DNA of 64,000 nucleotides from Armatimonadota bacterium (GTDB lineage: Bacteria; Armatimonadota; Fimbriimonadia; Fimbriimonadales; Fimbriimonadaceae). Shown piece by piece: positions 7,954 to 55,833 of the stretch. Position 1 is the first letter of the stretch, and each line of letters opens with the position of its first letter. The translations under genes were made by a program, and so were the position numbers. The notes beneath the pieces are model-generated. The model did no database searches. It was not told the DNA's origin and saw only the letters and a list, made by a program, of their open reading frames with translations. The stretch is taken from contig JAFDWR010000001.1 in NCBI GenBank assembly GCA_018268355.1, positions 215,961 through 279,960 on the forward strand. Direction: 5' to 3'.

Positions 7954-9276
7954 TTAGAACTTCGCGTCGTGCGACATGTTCGTCACGACAGGAAGGGTGG
8001 GGGTCTGTCGGCTCGCGCCGCCGGTGTTGCCGGTGTTGCCGCGTCGAACGCGGTTGAAGAGCTGCCAGCCGAACTCCATGATCGGGAGTCGGTTCGAGCG
8101 AAGGTCGTTCAGCGTTCCTGCAAAGGAGTCGGCGAACAGGCCCACTTGGTTGCCTTCTCGGTAGATCGCAAGGACGGTCTCACCGGGAGTCGTCGCCTGC
8201 TGTTGCGAGATGTGGCCGACGGTGGGGACTTCCTTTCCGAAGTATTGACCCTTATCCTTCGGGCGGTTCGCCTCGAAGAACGCGAAGATTCGCGATTCCT
8301 TTCGGAGGAAGAGGTCGTACAGGTCGCGCTTGGCGAGCATGTTGGCCGTGTCGCCCGCGCTGGTGGCATCGACGCCCGCAAGGTAGTCGCGGTTGCCAAT
8401 GCAAGCGCCCGTACCTGCAAAGTAGATGAGCACGGTGGCCTCTTCCGGGATTCGCTCGGAGAGGGCCTTGGCCGCTTCAAACATCTGCTTCTGCGTGCCG
8501 TTGATCACGATGTCGATGTTGCCTTCCGCATAGCCTGCGCTCGTCATCAGCGCCTTGCGGATGAGCTGCGCGTTGTTGGAGGCGAAGGGAAGGGCCGCAC
8601 CCGGGATCTGGCACTCGCTGTTGCCAATGATCAGGGCGTACTTCGAAGGCACGACCATGACCGAGCCAGCGGGAGTCGTCGCGGTTCCACCACCGAGGAT
8701 GCCGGGGGTACCGGCCGGGTTCACGCCCGGGTCATTGCCGCCCGCAGGTTGCGGGTTGATGACCGCGAGGTCTTCGGGGGTGATGACTTCGGTGTCGACC
8801 TTCCAAGTGTAGGTGCCGTTGAGGCCGGCCGCGACCTTGGCAGCGGCTTCCTTCTTGGCGGTGTCACCGAGCTTGGTGTAAATCGAATCAAGCACGAAGA
8901 ACGTTGCGCGGCTGCCTTGGTTGCGCTGAATGCGCTCCTCAAGTTCGGCTGCGGCGGTCTTCATGAGCGTGGCGGCATCGTCGCCCGTCATGCCCAGCGA
9001 TTGGCGATAGGCAGAGTAGGCAGCGAGGAAGTTCGCCGAATAGGGTGCGCCGCTTCGCCAGGTGCGAGCCTCGGTCACCGGCCCCGGGAGGCGGGTAGGG
9101 AGACTGGCGTCATCCGGACGATAAGCGATGGCACCGAGGAAGGCAGTTCGGGCTTCTGCCCACTTACCGTCTTTGGCGGCCTTGAGACCTTGCTCATAGA
9201 GCGGGATCCACTTTTGGGCGGACCCGACCACACTGAGCAGGGCTCCAACTGCGACGAGGAGAGTTCGTAAGCGCAT
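7954..9276 (-). CDS. Caspase-fold (C14-like) secreted protein, catalytic dyad lost
   Basis: The product has about 440 residues with a signal peptide (ending VVGSAQ) and a helical TPR-like region (AAKDGKWAEARTAFLGA). After a Gly/Pro-rich linker there is a caspase-like domain starting YALIIGNSEC. In active members the next landmarks are a His in S-G-H-G and a Cys in D-A-C-R. Here they read FAGTGAC and FEANRP, so the His aligns with Thr and the Cys with Asn. That points to a pseudo-peptidase. The start at 9276 has AAAGGA just upstream, and the gene follows an outer-membrane protein gene by seven bases. Confidence 0.75.
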   Translation of the reverse strand: MRLRTLLVAVGALLSVVGSAQKWIPLYEQGLKAAKDGKWAEARTAFLGAIAYRPDDASLPTRLPGPVTEARTWRSGAPYSANFLAAYSAYRQSLGMTGDDAATLMKTAAAELEERIQRNQGSRATFFVLDSIYTKLGDTAKKEAAAKVAAGLNGTYTWKVDTEVITPEDLAVINPQPAGGNDPGVNPAGTPGILGGGTATTPAGSVMVVPSKYALIIGNSECQIPGAALPFASNNAQLIRKALMTSAGYAEGNIDIVINGTQKQMFEAAKALSERIPEEATVLIYFAGTGACIGNRDYLAGVDATSAGDTANMLAKRDLYDLFLRKESRIFAFFEANRPKDKGQYFGKEVPTVGHISQQQATTPGETVLAIYREGNQVGLFADSFAGTLNDLRSNRLPIMEFGWQLFNRVRRGNTGNTGGASRQTPTLPVVTNMSHDAKF

Positions 9277-9283
9277 GGTTCCT

Positions 9284-10411
9284 TTACTTTCCGAATCGGT
9301 AGTTGAAGAAGAGGCCAAAGTCGGGACCACCCGTCTCTGGATAGGCAAAATTCAAGTCAATCGTGTACTTGGCGTTGTTCGGGCGATAGCCGATGCCAAA
9401 GGTGAACGCGTTGCGCGGGCCAAAGCCGTTGCCGCCGCTCGGAACGATGTTGTAGCCGAGTCGAACCGGAATCCGCATCGTGTCGCGGACGAGGTTGTAC
9501 TCGAGGCCGAGTCCGCCGACGACCTGGGTCTTTCGGTTGAAGTCGGGGCCGTTCTTCGCGTTGAAGAACGTTTGAATCTGGGTTCCTACGATCAGGAAGT
9601 CCTTTCCGCCGCGGAAGCCATCAATTCGGTAGGCCATGCTACCGAGCAATCGGGCCGGGATGCGGTCGAGCAGGTCTGAGGTTCGCGAGTTGTTGACCAG
9701 GTTGATCTCGGTTCGGTAGCTGAGACCGAACGAAACGTTCTGGTTGCCCTTGGGGGTGAACTGCGCACCGATGATCGCGCCAACGCCATAGCTGGTGCTG
9801 TTCTCGTTGCGGACGATCGAACCGCCGAGGTTGTCGACCTGGTTCAGGTTATAGCGAAGACCGGTTTGGGCGACCTGAAGGCCGAATCCCCAGCTGAAGA
9901 GCTGGTCCTCGCGAGTTCGTGCGAGCGAAAGCGTGAGGAAGTCGGTTCGGACTTCTCGTCGAAGGTTGCGAGTGATCGTCACCGCGCCGTTCGACGTCGA
10001 ACCGTTGAGCACGTCGTTGAGGTAGCCCTCGGTGGTGAGCGAGAGGCTGAGGACGCCTCGCTTGCCGAGCGGCTTCACGTAGCCGAGGTGGGTCGGCGAG
10101 AGGTTGCCTCGCTTGCCCGAGACGTTGAAGTCAGGATTGAGCGTGTTGCCCGAGATCGTGGTGTTCGATCGCGGGAGGTTGCGAAGGGCAACGCCCACCG
10201 CAGGCGTATCGACGAACGCGGTGCCGGCCGGATTAAAGGCCGAAGACAGCGTGTCGCTCGTCGTCCCATAGAGCGAACCGCCTGCACCCATGGCTCGTCC
10301 TCCCGAATCGAGTGCGTTCAGGAGGTCAGGGACCTGGGCTTGGCTCAGGGCTCCGAAGAGACCGAGAGCGATGATGGTGGAGAGCCTCCGTGCGTTCATT
10401 ATTGTGCTCAT
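9284..10411 (-). CDS. PorV/UPF0164-like outer-membrane beta-barrel
   Basis: The 375-residue product has a signal peptide (to about residue 25). It then carries the family's N-terminal signature, GGRAMGAGGSLYGTTSD followed by LSSAFNPAG, and a long run of amphipathic strands ending in the aromatic FGLFFNYRFGK. Relatives (PorV/PorQ, FadL-like) sit in the outer membrane and take part in surface-protein handling or hydrophobic transport. The role here is unknown. AAGGAG lies directly before the first ATG; an ATG four codons later is an alternative. It is the middle gene of a three-gene minus-strand set. Confidence 0.78.
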   Translation of the reverse strand: MSTIMNARRLSTIIALGLFGALSQAQVPDLLNALDSGGRAMGAGGSLYGTTSDTLSSAFNPAGTAFVDTPAVGVALRNLPRSNTTISGNTLNPDFNVSGKRGNLSPTHLGYVKPLGKRGVLSLSLTTEGYLNDVLNGSTSNGAVTITRNLRREVRTDFLTLSLARTREDQLFSWGFGLQVAQTGLRYNLNQVDNLGGSIVRNENSTSYGVGAIIGAQFTPKGNQNVSFGLSYRTEINLVNNSRTSDLLDRIPARLLGSMAYRIDGFRGGKDFLIVGTQIQTFFNAKNGPDFNRKTQVVGGLGLEYNLVRDTMRIPVRLGYNIVPSGGNGFGPRNAFTFGIGYRPNNAKYTIDLNFAYPETGGPDFGLFFNYRFGK

Positions 10412-47951: not shown

Positions 47952-48509
47952 ATGAAGAAAAAAAGTGAATCGTACCGACACGGGAGCTTGCCCCAGACGC
48001 TGGTTGAGGGTGCGCTGAAGCTGCTGGAGACCCAAACCGCCGAGGAGCTGAGTGTCCGCGAGCTGGCCGAGCTCGCCGGGGTCAGCCCCCGCGCCCCTTA
48101 CGTTCACTTCCCAACGAAGCGCGACCTCTTGAAGGCGGTGGCCGTGCGGGGGTTCGAGCAGCTCACCGAAGCAGGGGAAGCGGCAAGGGGCGACCTTATC
48201 GCCCTCGGCAAGGTCTATATTCGCCTCGGGCTCGAGCATCCCAACCTTTATCGACTGATGTTCAGCGGGGTTCTGGACGCGGATTGCACCCAGGCGGACG
48301 AGTCGTACCGCCAGGTCCAAGAGGCGATCTCGGCCCGGAAGCCGGATTGGGACGAGGGCCGGGTCGCGACCGCAAGCCTGGGGCTATGGGCCTTTGTCCA
48401 TGGCCTGACGGAGCTGCAGCTGCTCGGCCTGGTGTCACCCGAGACGTGGGAGCATGTCAAGTTCGAGCACCTCGCCGGCGCGCTGGGGGAGATCCTGCGG
48501 GCAGAGTAG
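47952..48509 (+). CDS. TetR/AcrR-family transcriptional regulator
   Basis: The 185-residue product has the TetR helix-turn-helix (ELSVRELAELAGVSPRAPYV, HFPTKRDLLKAV) and a WHG-type C-terminal ligand domain (IRLGLEHPNLYRLMFSG). It probably represses the divergent quinone reductase and itself. A decayed copy of its last 30 codons is found at 52209-52297. Confidence 0.92.
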   Translation: MKKKSESYRHGSLPQTLVEGALKLLETQTAEELSVRELAELAGVSPRAPYVHFPTKRDLLKAVAVRGFEQLTEAGEAARGDLIALGKVYIRLGLEHPNLYRLMFSGVLDADCTQADESYRQVQEAISARKPDWDEGRVATASLGLWAFVHGLTELQLLGLVSPETWEHVKFEHLAGALGEILRAE

Positions 48510-48565: not shown

Positions 48566-49048
48566 ATGCCGCCCTTTGTGCCCAAAGACTTTGCCGTTCC
48601 GGCCACTCTCAAAACGAACGAGTTTCACTTAAGGATGCTCACCGTCAACGACGTGGTCAAGGACTTCGATGCCGTGATCACCAGCGTCGACCACTGCAAG
48701 ACGATTTGGGGTGGAAAATGGCCCGAGGGTCTCACCCTTGAACAAAACCTGATCGACCTCGGCTGGCACCAGAAGGAGTTCCAGATCCGGCAATCGTTCG
48801 CCTACACGGTTGTCGCCCCCGATGAATCCATGGTCCTTGGATGCGTTTACATCAACCCGACGGACAAGTCTGGGATTGACGCCGAGGTCTATCTCTGGAT
48901 TCGGCAGAGCCACCTCGCAAGCGGAATGGAGACGCGGCTTTACCAGGCGGTTCGGGAGTGGGTGCAATCAGATTGGCCCTTTGCGGCTGTCGCCTACCCT
49001 GGTCGGAGTATTTCGCTCGCCGAGTGGCGAGAAATCGAGTCGATTTAG
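48566..49048 (+). CDS. GNAT-like acetyltransferase
   Basis: The 160-residue product fits a GNAT fold: NEFHLRMLTVNDVVKDFDAV, SFAYTVVAPDESMVLGCVYI (strand 4) and DAEVYLWIRQSHLASGMETRL in place of the acetyl-CoA loop R/Q-x-x-G-x-G/A. The substrate is unknown. AAGGAATC precedes the ATG by about ten bases. A diverged copy of its last 40 codons is fused to a lipoprotein start at 50811-51092. Confidence 0.75.
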   Translation: MPPFVPKDFAVPATLKTNEFHLRMLTVNDVVKDFDAVITSVDHCKTIWGGKWPEGLTLEQNLIDLGWHQKEFQIRQSFAYTVVAPDESMVLGCVYINPTDKSGIDAEVYLWIRQSHLASGMETRLYQAVREWVQSDWPFAAVAYPGRSISLAEWREIESI

Positions 49049-50810: not shown

Positions 50811-51092
50811 ATGCGGAGCGCGCAAATAGCTTTGATCCTGTCGGCGGGGCTTGTGGTCTGGTCCTGCGCGCCCGCAAAGCAGGCGGCCGCCCCGGTTAAG
50901 CCGCCTTTGACCCTCCCTCCGTTGCTTCATCCCGCCGTGCAATACCGAGGTGAGGCAATCCCAAGCGAAGTGGGGACCCGGCTCTATAAGGCGGTTCGGG
51001 AGTGGGTGCAATCAGATTGGCCCTTTTCGGCTGTCGCTTACCCTGGTCGGAGCATTTCGCTCGCCGACTGGAGAATTCTTCCAAGCAGTTAG
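50811..51092 (+). pseudogene. Chimeric remnant: lipoprotein start fused to GNAT 3' end
   Basis: The 93-residue frame begins with a lipoprotein signal (MRSAQIALILSAGLVVWSC) and a Pro-rich linker. From about residue 52 it becomes a near copy of the end of the GNAT gene at 48566: TRLYKAVREWVQSDWPFSAV versus TRLYQAVREWVQSDWPFAAV. The DNA match covers about 50964-51073 against 48919-49030. Two unrelated genes have been joined; it may or may not be expressed. TAGCTT lies nine bases before the ATG. Confidence 0.65.
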
Positions 51093-52170: not shown

Positions 52171-52208
52171 TGGTACTCCCGACGGGATTCGAACCCGCGA
52201 TCTTCGCC
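52171..52208 (-). repeat. Distal attachment-site-like repeat (3' half of tRNA-Glu)
   Basis: These 38 bases are identical to 55757-55794, the part of tRNA-Glu from the 3' side of the anticodon stem to the CCA end. Element integration at a tRNA 3' end leaves such a displaced copy at the far side, so this is a good attL/attR candidate. Confidence 0.8.
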
Positions 52209-52297
52209 TGCTCGGCCTGGTGTCGCCCGAGACGTGGGAGCATGTCAAGTTCGAGCACCTGGCCGGTGCGCTGGGGTAGATTCTGCGGGTCGAGTAG
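52209..52297 (+). pseudogene. 3' fragment of a TetR gene
   Basis: About 90 bases match 48420-48509, the end of the intact TetR gene, with roughly seven differences. One of them turns a Glu codon into TAG (HLAGALG then stop). It directly abuts the tRNA-Glu fragment. Confidence 0.75.
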
Positions 52298-52450
52298 TGA
52301 GCCGCTAATCAGGAATTAGATGCATCTATACCCATGCTCGTTCAAAACAACAAAAATGGTGATGATGATTCAAATCGCTCGATTCCGAAACATAGAAAAA
52401 CCACCATTCGATAAGTTTGCATCCTTCACTACAATACCTGATACCATTTC

Positions 52451-54031
52451 CTACATATAGAACTTGAACGGAAGCGGCGGCGTCTCAGAAAGCGGGCCCG
52501 CCGTCAGAATTGATCCTATGGCATCTGCAAAACGCAGCGTCACGGGAATCCCGTCGCCATATACATTGGAATTGTAATTAAGCTTGGTAAGTTTCAAGAT
52601 ATCCTCTAGCACCGTGAGAATTGGAGTGTCTCCACGCAACACATCCACTTCAAGCGGGGTAGGCACCTCTCGGCCCGGGTAGGTTTGCATGCGCGGAATC
52701 CAACCGTTTGCGATAAGTAGCCCATGGCGTTCATCAGTTATGTGGGCGACTCCGCGAAGCGCGACCAAGTCTGAACGAGGATATATTCGAATACTTGAGC
52801 GAGTTTTAATCCGTATTCCTGTTAGCTGAGTTTGAGGCGGGACAGCACGCTGAAATCCCTGCCACTCCTCATCAGTAAATGCCGTCTTCCCATGAATAAA
52901 TAGCTCACGCGGATATTCCCCGTCAAATCGGTCACGATAAGATTGAAGGGCTAAACTAATAAGACTCTCAGCAGCATCGGCATTGAGATGACACTCCTTT
53001 GTATCAGGGCTATACCATGGGCCAACATTCCCCTTAAAAACGGTGCCATCTCCGGAGTCAAGGAACATTTGAGCCGCGCAGCAAGCTGTGGTTGCCACAT
53101 TGTTTGGACGGAACCGTCTCCCCCTCGGAGGCTCTGTTCGCTTAAACACGAGCCCGATGTAGCAGACGCCAGGTCTAAGATTGGCGACTTTCCAAGGACT
53201 TCCGCAGGCCTTGTAAAAAAGAGCTGTACTCAGATTCCAAGCAATGTCGTTGACATGCGTATAGAGAGCAGAGATTTTTTTGCAGTCTCCTTGAAATCTG
53301 TCTACGGTCTGGGCAAGGTCGGTGATAATTGCGATCGTCTGCTCTCGAATCAATTGGACAGGAATCTGAGAAACCAGAAGCCGGTGCTTCAATTGGTGGT
53401 GAAAGTCCGTCTTGTATTCAACGGCATCTAGGCTGAAATCTGGTTCCGAATCATCAAACAGGCCACCCTGACCCGCGGTAACTTGAGCAAGCCTCTTCAG
53501 TAGCTGCTTTGGACTTAACGATGGTGCAACAGATATCTCCGAGTCATTCAACGGGGCGGATTTTGGCTGGCAGTGAGTATAAACGACATCAGGTACATAG
53601 CAGATCCAGAGCAGTGACGTCGTATCATCTTCACGGCGAGCCGCTTCCAATTGCGCCAGGTAAAGATCTACAGCAGAGTAGATCCTTTGATGAGGTTCTC
53701 TTATCCTGAGTACTTGTTTGAGCGCACCAAAATCAACAAATTTGAAGATCTCAAATCGTTCTGGCAATGCGCAATTGAAAAGCGCCTCAAAGCCTGGGAA
53801 TATGACTCGGGCTCTTGGGTCTACCGGGAACCTAAGCGGATTCATGAGCTCGGAAATCAGCTGTTGAGCCTTTTCAAGTCCCTCACGAGGGCCGACGTAC
53901 CCTAGCCTAAGCGCGCGCAGAGAAGGTGTAACCAAAGGCCCGTGCAATGAGAGTCCTACTCGAGGGTGCTTGGCGGTCTGTCCTCGCCCGAAAATTATGT
54001 CCGGTTCTTCAAGGTATATCGCTCGATTCAT
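52451..54031 (-). CDS. Short prokaryotic Argonaute (MID-PIWI), SPARTA subunit
   Basis: The 526-residue product has a MID-like region (about 200-260; FHHQLKHRLLVSQIPVQLI) and a PIWI domain with WNLSTALFYKACGSPWKVAN, then YIGLVFKRTE (291-300). Where active PIWI domains carry the first catalytic Asp after YIG, there is a Val/Phe, and the end VTLRFADAIGSILTAGP lacks the last catalytic residue. It should therefore bind guide and target without cutting. There is no PAZ domain. It overlaps the TIR-APAZ gene by 4 bp. In known SPARTA systems the pair uses guide RNA to sense invader DNA. Base composition is markedly AT-rich. Confidence 0.88.
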   Translation of the reverse strand: MNRAIYLEEPDIIFGRGQTAKHPRVGLSLHGPLVTPSLRALRLGYVGPREGLEKAQQLISELMNPLRFPVDPRARVIFPGFEALFNCALPERFEIFKFVDFGALKQVLRIREPHQRIYSAVDLYLAQLEAARREDDTTSLLWICYVPDVVYTHCQPKSAPLNDSEISVAPSLSPKQLLKRLAQVTAGQGGLFDDSEPDFSLDAVEYKTDFHHQLKHRLLVSQIPVQLIREQTIAIITDLAQTVDRFQGDCKKISALYTHVNDIAWNLSTALFYKACGSPWKVANLRPGVCYIGLVFKRTEPPRGRRFRPNNVATTACCAAQMFLDSGDGTVFKGNVGPWYSPDTKECHLNADAAESLISLALQSYRDRFDGEYPRELFIHGKTAFTDEEWQGFQRAVPPQTQLTGIRIKTRSSIRIYPRSDLVALRGVAHITDERHGLLIANGWIPRMQTYPGREVPTPLEVDVLRGDTPILTVLEDILKLTKLNYNSNVYGDGIPVTLRFADAIGSILTAGPLSETPPLPFKFYM

Positions 54032-55371
54032 TCCTCTTCGTCATCCTCCTCATCATCAACATGGTCATCTGGTTGGAGATTCTTTAGCCTCTGGTGCTTA
54101 ACGGGAACTTGGAGGTGGGACAATTCGCCTGAAAGGACAAGCGGGGAGTTGCCTTCAAATTCGAACCATATCTCCCCCGCTTCTTCTTTCCAAAAGGACA
54201 GAAGGGTGTAGTAGAAGCCTCTCCACTTATCATTGAACCAAAGCTTAGCGATAGAACGGCGCTTCTTATGCTGCAGTCGACGGTCCCGAATTGAGTCAGG
54301 GTCTAGCGGCTCAAGAAGAGCATCCTTTGTGAATAGAATATGTGGCGTTAATGTAACGTAAAAGCCGTCAGCGTATCCAATTGAGAATTCAAAGCCTAAG
54401 TGCCAATAGAGGTTCTTGTGGATTCCCCAAACATTCCTGTAGCTGCGTTTGGAGTTTTCTGGAAGTTTGATGAGTACCTTTCCATTTGGCACAGTATCCC
54501 TGTTGAAGAAAAAGATTGAAGCCTTCTTGGGACGCTGTAGTTCTATTAAGCCGCGTTGGCGCAGTTGAGTGTGCAGCGACTTTCGAATTAGTTCAACAAC
54601 GAGTCTTCTTGTTTCAAGAGGGCTAAGAGGATACTGTTCAATGCCGCGGGAAAGTGCATCACTTAGAGAATGCACTATTGGCATATCTTGTCCAAAAAGG
54701 CGAGGAGAGCCTTTTAGTGCATGAAAACTGAAGCGTCTGCCAGCATACGCTAAGCCACTCACCAATTCACTAGATATGGAGCAGTCATCCGCGACGCTAA
54801 ATAGCGTTTCAGGGAGCTTTAGGCACTCAACTCGATTGATGTCGTATCTGATCGTACTATGAGTTACTCCAATGTCGTCTGGAAGTAAAAGCCCTTGCAA
54901 TACTTGGGTTTCCGCCTCATTATTGTTTCCTGGTCTAACGCCCACTGAATCTAAGTAGTCTAGTATCCGGATCAAGGCTACTGACCATCGTCGCTCCGGT
55001 ACCGACATTCGACCGTGTACTTGGATTGGTAAGTCTTTTAGTGGCAAGTCATCGATGATCCAAGGAAGGACGAACTTGGGGTAGTCCCTCTCGAGCGTTA
55101 GCCCAAGCTCCATCTCCCGTTCGACGCCTATCCTCAATTGTCCGTCCTGTCCAAAGGTTGATTTTGACAGGACGAGAATGAGTGCGCGGCATTCAACCCG
55201 AAGAACTGGCTCAATCGTTCGCCAAATTGTTTCGCCTCCTCTAAATTTTTTGACGTCGATCCAGACGCTGTAGCCTAGGGCTGAGAGTTTAGCGGCCAGC
55301 CAGCCGGCCGCGTCATTGTCGGCCGGATTTGCGTGACTGATGAACACTGTTTGACGGCTGGACTCGGTCAT
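54028..55371 (-). CDS. TIR-APAZ protein, SPARTA NADase subunit
   Basis: The 447-residue product has an N-terminal TIR domain: VFISHANPADNDAAGWLAAK, GYSVWIDVKKFRGGETIW, ALILVLSKSTF, then IGVEREMELGL, where Glu 84 or 86 is the likely NADase residue. From about residue 160 a large domain with no other known motif fits APAZ, the partner of short Argonautes that replaces their N and PAZ domains. In known systems target binding makes the complex oligomerise and deplete NAD(P)+, killing or stalling the infected cell. AAGGAT precedes the ATG. It is encoded first, then the Argonaute. Confidence 0.87.
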   Translation of the reverse strand: MTESSRQTVFISHANPADNDAAGWLAAKLSALGYSVWIDVKKFRGGETIWRTIEPVLRVECRALILVLSKSTFGQDGQLRIGVEREMELGLTLERDYPKFVLPWIIDDLPLKDLPIQVHGRMSVPERRWSVALIRILDYLDSVGVRPGNNNEAETQVLQGLLLPDDIGVTHSTIRYDINRVECLKLPETLFSVADDCSISSELVSGLAYAGRRFSFHALKGSPRLFGQDMPIVHSLSDALSRGIEQYPLSPLETRRLVVELIRKSLHTQLRQRGLIELQRPKKASIFFFNRDTVPNGKVLIKLPENSKRSYRNVWGIHKNLYWHLGFEFSIGYADGFYVTLTPHILFTKDALLEPLDPDSIRDRRLQHKKRRSIAKLWFNDKWRGFYYTLLSFWKEEAGEIWFEFEGNSPLVLSGELSHLQVPVKHQRLKNLQPDDHVDDEEDDEEE

Positions 55372-55711
55372 ATCCTTGAGTTCTCATAGAGGTGGACGAA
55401 TGACGACAGGTAAAGGGGTCTTGTTGCGGAAATTGTGTGAATAGCCCGACGTGTGTCCTGTGGCGCTCATCGACGAGGTACGAAAGGCCACGTGAAAGTG
55501 AAAGGAGTCAAGATCAGCTGACGTGGTCGCGAGTTGCGCATCGTCTTGGCTCGTGGAACTGCGCTCTTGCGATTTTCCAAGTAAGAGAGTGGGATTGCCC
55601 CATTCCTCTTTTAGAACTTCCGACAGTATTCCCCGGTGCGACCTCGCTCCATTTCCCTCGGTCTGGCAGGCTGAGACTCGGCGGGGTGAACTTCCCATCC
55701 CACCCCCAGGC
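55372..55711. other. Intergenic stretch between the TIR-APAZ gene and tRNA-Glu
   Basis: About 340 bases. The promoter of the TIR-APAZ/Argonaute pair must lie here, but no convincing -35/-10 pair stands out. Short frames on both strands lack domains. I see no integrase gene. Confidence 0.5.
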
Positions 55712-55756
55712 AAAAACTGAATGAGCCCTGACACAAAGTGCCAGAGCTCATTCAGT
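55712..55756 (-). terminator. Terminator of tRNA-Glu
   Basis: Bases 55716-55726 and 55746-55756 form a perfect 11-bp stem that continues imperfectly inward. On the minus strand it starts right after the CCA end and is followed by TTTTTG, so it ends the tRNA transcript. Confidence 0.85.
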
Positions 55757-55794
55757 TGGTACTCCCGACGGGATTCGAACCCGCGATCTTCGCC
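55757..55794 (-). repeat. Proximal attachment-site-like repeat inside tRNA-Glu
   Basis: This is the intact copy of the 38-bp repeat that bounds the island. It starts at the CCA end and stops at the anticodon stem, the usual crossover zone for tyrosine integrases. No integrase gene is present between the copies. Confidence 0.75.
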
Positions 55795-55833
55795 GTGAGA
55801 GGGCGATGTCCTGAACCGCTAGACGACGGGAGC
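55757..55833 (-). tRNA. tRNA-Glu, anticodon CTC
   Basis: The minus strand folds as a full 77-base tRNA with encoded CCA. The acceptor stem is GCTCCCG with CGGGAGT (G1-U72 wobble), the anticodon stem is TCGCC/GGCGA with loop CTCTCAC and anticodon CTC, and the T-arm contains GGTTCGAATCC. Its 3' 38 bases are repeated at 52171-52208, marking it as the integration site of the Argonaute island. Confidence 0.96.

Follow-up and report, generated by a model that had tools for sequence, protein, structure and literature searches.

A divergent SPARTA pair bounded by tRNA-Glu sequences in an Armatimonadota genome

A two-gene locus on a tRNA-bounded, GC-poor segment

The window analyzed here, a 64,000-nucleotide stretch of contig JAFDWR010000001.1 from a member of the Armatimonadota (family Fimbriimonadaceae), carries two overlapping genes on its reverse strand. 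The upstream gene (54028-55371, minus strand), recognized as an open reading frame (ORF) with profile and structure matches, encodes a protein of 447 amino acids comprising a TIR domain (approximately residues 1-142, including W50 and E86), an APAZ domain (approximately residues 165-425) and a disordered acidic C-terminal tail (residues 432-447). It is followed by the gene for a short Argonaute of 526 amino acids (pAgo; 52451-54031, minus strand), which consists of MID and PIWI domains without PAZ and was identified by PADLOC, PDB-sequence and Foldseek searches. Start and stop codons share an ATGA overlap of 4 bp (54028-54031, minus strand), the layout of translational coupling, and the same overlap occurs in many of the SPARTA loci compared, including Crt and Map. 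In the ORF list both genes are intact and have exactly the coordinates given in the original prediction, whose description of a TIR-APAZ gene directly before a short MID-PIWI Argonaute gene with a 4-bp overlap agrees with the ORFs and with the Pfam and PADLOC matches. No clear promoter for the pair was found at the locus.

An intact tRNA-Glu (CTC) gene (55757-55833, minus strand; ARAGORN; Rfam RF00005, 63.5 bits) precedes the TIR-APAZ start by 386 bp, with its 3' end towards the pair. Beyond what had been predicted, we found that this tRNA gene and an exact 38-nt copy of part of it bracket the two genes: the 3' half of the tRNA up to its CCA end (55757-55794, minus strand) recurs, identical at 38 of 38 positions, as a truncated tRNA-Glu 3' fragment at the opposite end of the segment (52171-52208, minus strand). 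These att-like repeats are the only two exact copies in the whole genome, which contains one further site with 1 mismatch. The enclosed 3.55-kb segment (52209-55756), delimited by composition and inspected through the ORF list, PHROGs and Rfam, holds the SPARTA pair only. Its GC content is 49.8%, whereas the window outside 48.5-55.8 kb has 60.5%, and the GC3 of the two genes is 0.48-0.49 versus approximately 0.8 in neighboring host genes. Thus, the pair, which had been called AT-rich, is GC-poor relative to the genome but not AT-rich in absolute terms. The combination of a tRNA repeat with foreign composition is what site-specific integration into a tRNA gene classically leaves behind.

A very stable hairpin of 20 bp with a T-run (55715-55757, minus strand; -33.5 kcal/mol for a 58-nt stretch, z -7.6) immediately follows the tRNA 3' end, on the side of the attachment repeat that faces the island. 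It is probably the rho-independent terminator of tRNA-Glu, insulating the pair from the tRNA gene. At the inner border of the opposite end, the tRNA fragment is abutted by a 90-bp TetR pseudogene fragment (52208-52297, plus strand), which matches the final 90 bp of the TetR gene (47952-48509) with 92% identity; the presence of this fragment beside the tRNA copy is a puzzle. The source of the fragment (48420-48509) extends to the stop codon, and the copy, 3.8 kb away, has an internal stop. A GNAT-like gene likewise has its 3' part (48915-49030) copied, 2 kb away (50959-51074; 89%), with small orphan ORFs in between. The TetR, GNAT and tRNA copies thereby mark out three adjoining segments, each bounded by the duplication of a gene 3' end and none carrying an integrase. 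Elsewhere in the window, an ORF at 7954-9348 (minus strand) contains a caspase-type peptidase domain (Pfam Peptidase_C14, E = 2.8e-6).

Assignment to SPARTA and conservation of functional residues

Profile searches matched both proteins over most of their length. Pfam TIR_2 aligned with residues 9-110 of the TIR-APAZ protein (E = 9.9e-13; 49.1 bits versus a cut-off of 28), and the PADLOC model Aga_TIR-PNTD1-PNTD2, which is of the TIR-APAZ type, covered residues 6-446 (E = 4.5e-70); the Argonaute was covered by PADLOC pAgo_I over residues 3-526 (E = 8.5e-163). When the TIR-APAZ protein was compared with PDB sequences, SPARTA TIR-APAZ chains were the only strong matches (best E = 5.2e-30), followed by lone TIR domains at E = 0.016. 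For the Argonaute, SPARTA Argonautes again came first, with an E value of 1.9e-116 for the CrtSPARTA pAgo; the next short-pAgo system was SPARHA (9om4; E = 5.5e-42).

The two proteins were modeled as single chains with AlphaFold, from 52 sequences for the TIR-APAZ protein (mean pLDDT 86.1) and 44 for the Argonaute (mean pLDDT 83.2). In Foldseek searches, SPARTA chains ranked before those of SPARSA, SPARDA and SPARHA for both models, and the top 35 matches of the TIR-APAZ model were all SPARTA. The Argonaute model superposed on the CrtSPARTA pAgo (8isy_A) with a TM score of 0.88/0.91 and an rmsd of 2.7. For the TIR-APAZ model, the whole-chain TM score against SPARTA was low, approximately 0.5, probably owing to a hinge between the TIR and APAZ domains of the model, because chains holding mainly APAZ, such as 8jr8_B of MapSPARTA, align at a TM score of 0.80 (rmsd 3.2). 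Thus, SPARTA is the nearest solved family in the profile, PDB-sequence and structural searches, as originally predicted; the TIR domain is genuine, judging from TIR_2 and the SPARTA TIR-APAZ chains, and the APAZ similarity does continue past residue 160, up to residue 446 in the profile match, and the APAZ model superposes on 8jr8_B.

Functional residues were mapped through CrtSPARTA (L023), with positions taken from PMC11156904. In the alignment, the PIWI tetrad positions are occupied by V295, C347, K382 and D503, so that three of the four acidic residues are gone and slicing should therefore be lost; the catalytic residues had indeed been suspected of being lost, and the DEDX alignment bears this out. 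Across the family, the fourth position is most often D (63 of 80). Residues that bind the guide are kept, with Crt Y148, H207, K211, R225, N466 and N468 corresponding to Y151, H211, K215, R229, N485 and N487, and the pocket for the guide 5'-phosphate and metal in MID is conserved in the alignment (Y151, H211, K215 and N487). In the TIR domain, E86 corresponds to the Crt catalytic residue E77 and is present in every sequence ungapped at that column, and W50 corresponds to Crt W46 in a nearly invariant column. The last 25 residues of the TIR-APAZ protein are 44% D/E, an acidity equal to the family median; in one study, NADase activity was little affected when the flexible C-terminal segment (418-452) was deleted along with a MID loop (PMC10474274).

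Other TIR positions appear to have diverged. The Crt TIR-TIR interface and adenine-stacking residues Y105, R114 and N116, substitution of any of which reduced or abolished the NADase activity of CrtSPARTA (PMC11156904), are aligned with L111, G120 and M122, an alignment-dependent result that is uncertain by one residue near Crt R114, with R121 sitting one position off. The L at the Crt-105 position is unique among 71 sequences, and the R114 and N116 positions vary in approximately one-third of the relatives. Because of this variation and the uncertain register, we read the three replacements as a caution on the predicted activity rather than as evidence against membership in SPARTA. At the Crt pAgo-pAgo interface, Q35/Y37 are replaced by T35/R39, at positions that are variable in the family.

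The same replacements (Y105>L, R114>G, N116>M), along with a longer stretch preceding the catalytic helix and the long end branch of the Argonaute (see below), could be taken to indicate a SPARTA-derived pair with a lost or changed TIR output, which would still recognize guide and target but would form no standard composite TIR site or would act on another substrate. Given that the catalytic E86 and W50 are kept, that both reading frames are intact and free of decay, and that many other SPARTA TIRs are variable at R114 and N116, we consider this quite unlikely.

For the favored reading, a SPARTA system proper, the sequences and models support the presence of every required part, and NADase activity would be expected from homologues. 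By analogy with characterized homologues, from which guide type, target type, oligomerization, NADase activity and abortive outcome are all carried over, the two proteins would assemble 1:1 into a complex carrying a 5'-phosphorylated small RNA guide, and the guide would pair with the single-stranded DNA of an invader (plasmid or phage). Such pairing would lead the complexes to tetramerize via their TIR domains, the assembled TIR domains would hydrolyze NAD(P)+, and the loss of NAD(P)+ would kill or stall the infected cell, stopping the invader.

Distribution, acquisition and mobility

A scan of GTDB species genomes located Argonaute relatives at 282 places, of which the best 80 were retained. 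A TIR-APAZ-like homologue is located upstream of the pAgo in 77 of these best 80 relatives, a few being truncated. Identity of the Argonaute to the best 80 of the 282 relatives does not exceed 45%, and the TIR-APAZ protein is approximately 19-25% identical to its homologues. In the phylogenetic tree, the Argonaute has a long terminal branch (1.59 changes per column) without a supported close relative, and the tree gives it no placement with any phylum. Bacteroidota, Acidobacteriota, Verrucomicrobiota and other phyla are mixed in the pAgo tree, as expected because these Argonaute systems spread horizontally (PMC6299218). Among plasmids, 101 records have a match to the SPARTA pAgo, the best approximately 40% identical, and no SPARTA pAgo was found in viral contigs and phage records.

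Within the phylum, 5 of the 291 genomes contain any Argonaute match, and full-length SPARTA is confined to two, the present genome and G241. In the family, full-length homologues are missing from all 84 other genomes, one of which gave a weak partial match (32% identity). Our literature search found no publication joining Armatimonadota with argonaute. The occurrence had been singled out as noteworthy for the lineage, which holds in the sense of rarity (2 of 291) but not of uniqueness, G241 having a full pair at 42% identity. The further claim that the pair was acquired is supported by the composition, the tRNA-bounded repeat and the near-absence from the family.

We also looked for comparable boundaries around other SPARTA pairs. 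An exact bracketing repeat of at least 20 nt within 3 kb was present in 3 of 67 other SPARTA loci, and eight tRNA genes lie near seven of the other SPARTA loci, where no further tRNA 3' fragment turned up beyond the pair (0/7). Separately, a 20-nt direct repeat without mismatches, AACGGAACTTCAGGAGCTTA, tightly encloses a Dadabacteria SPARTA pair (L037:4497, L037:7570), which may likewise be a compact insertion. An empty tRNA-Glu site was sought by way of cydB relatives elsewhere; the stretches around these did not include the tRNA-Glu locus, and no empty site was seen.

No recombinase, phage gene, integrase remnant or other RNA family was found on the segment by means of the ORF list, PHROGs and Rfam. 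The genome, estimated to be 97.7% complete, contains only two tyrosine recombinases, of 300 and 319 aa, both of which look XerC/XerD-like by length and sequence. Far from the pair, a tRNA-Ala gene and, behind it, two neighboring large serine recombinases of 517 and 682 aa (L107:6419-10063, corresponding to approximately 1058418-1062062 on contig C1) lie at the start of a GC-poorer stretch, a separate integrated element; considered as possible kin of the SPARTA segment, it was rejected, as the two share no sequence.

Because its own integrase is absent, we do not class the segment as a complete integrative element. It is more likely what remains of a larger integrative element after loss of the integrase than a cargo-only mobile unit at tRNA-Glu att sites that depends on a foreign integrase acting in trans, although elements dependent on helpers in trans are a recognized class (PMC11389934). 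The cargo-only reading is somewhat unlikely; if true, it would provide a route for short-Argonaute immunity between distant phyla.

The lack of an integrase, together with the other small duplications that flank the locus, might instead suggest that the pair is old and vertically inherited, the tRNA repeat being a chance occurrence or the remnant of a tandem duplication. This is highly unlikely, considering the 38/38 identity with an abrupt edge exactly at the tRNA CCA end, the GC3 of 0.49 versus approximately 0.8, the lack of a full-length homologue in the other family genomes (0/84, with the one partial match), and the scarcity of bracketing repeats (3/67) and of second tRNA fragments (0/7) at other SPARTA loci. 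We favor, with a probability of approximately 0.93, a SPARTA system acquired horizontally at tRNA-Glu (CTC).

Comparison with known systems and significance

CrtSPARTA of Thermoflavifilum thermophilum/Crenotalea thermophila (8ifk, 8isy, 8u72) shares with the present pair the gene order, the 4-bp overlap and the folds, as well as TIR E77/W46, MID Y148/H207/K211, the metal-site N468, an inactive PIWI and an acidic TIR-APAZ tail, at identities of approximately 40% (pAgo) and 25% (TIR-APAZ). It differs in TIR Y105, R114 and N116 and in pAgo Q35/Y37, all replaced here, and in the C-terminal residue of the pAgo, which is Ile in CrtSPARTA and Met in the present protein. Furthermore, no tRNA or bracketing repeat was found at the Crt locus, unlike here. 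MapSPARTA of Maribacter polysiphoniae (L021; 8fex, 8ffi) has the same architecture and overlap, with D and K at the fourth and third PIWI tetrad positions, respectively, as here; its proteins are 38% (pAgo) and 24% (TIR-APAZ) identical to those described here, and no tRNA or bracketing repeat was detected at its locus.

The best database match is the SPARTA system of Spartobacteria UBA695, with a pAgo 45% identical to the present one. There, approximately 340 bp separate the TIR-APAZ gene from an upstream tRNA-Thr gene (L002:4165-4240), whose 3' end points towards the pair, as here, but no second tRNA fragment was found on the other side. The full pair of G241 (L102), from the same phylum, has an upstream TIR-APAZ gene and the 4-bp overlap, and like the present pair it is inserted between housekeeping genes; its pAgo ends in KFYM, as does the Argonaute described here. 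Its TIR keeps H, R and N at positions 105, 114 and 116, unlike the present TIR, and there is no tRNA in the 19 kb read. Finally, SPARSA (SIR2-APAZ/Ago), SPARDA and SPARHA share the logic of an inactive MID-PIWI with an APAZ effector and appear lower in the same searches, but assignment to one of these systems can be dismissed as having a negligible probability, because the effector here is TIR, as opposed to SIR2 or a nuclease, and the scores and the top 35 Foldseek matches favor SPARTA. The SPARSA and SPARDA pAgos are only approximately 20% identical to this Argonaute in structural alignment.

The pair is thus a real, intact and divergent representative of SPARTA, a type of system that was itself already known, in an unusually clean tRNA-bounded and integrase-less setting. 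As a divergent but intact SPARTA in a lineage where such systems are rare, it would help to test which residues of the TIR interface are really needed. Moreover, the clean tRNA-bounded edge of this SPARTA acquisition bears on how a two-gene system travels between phyla without adjoining transposases or integrases.
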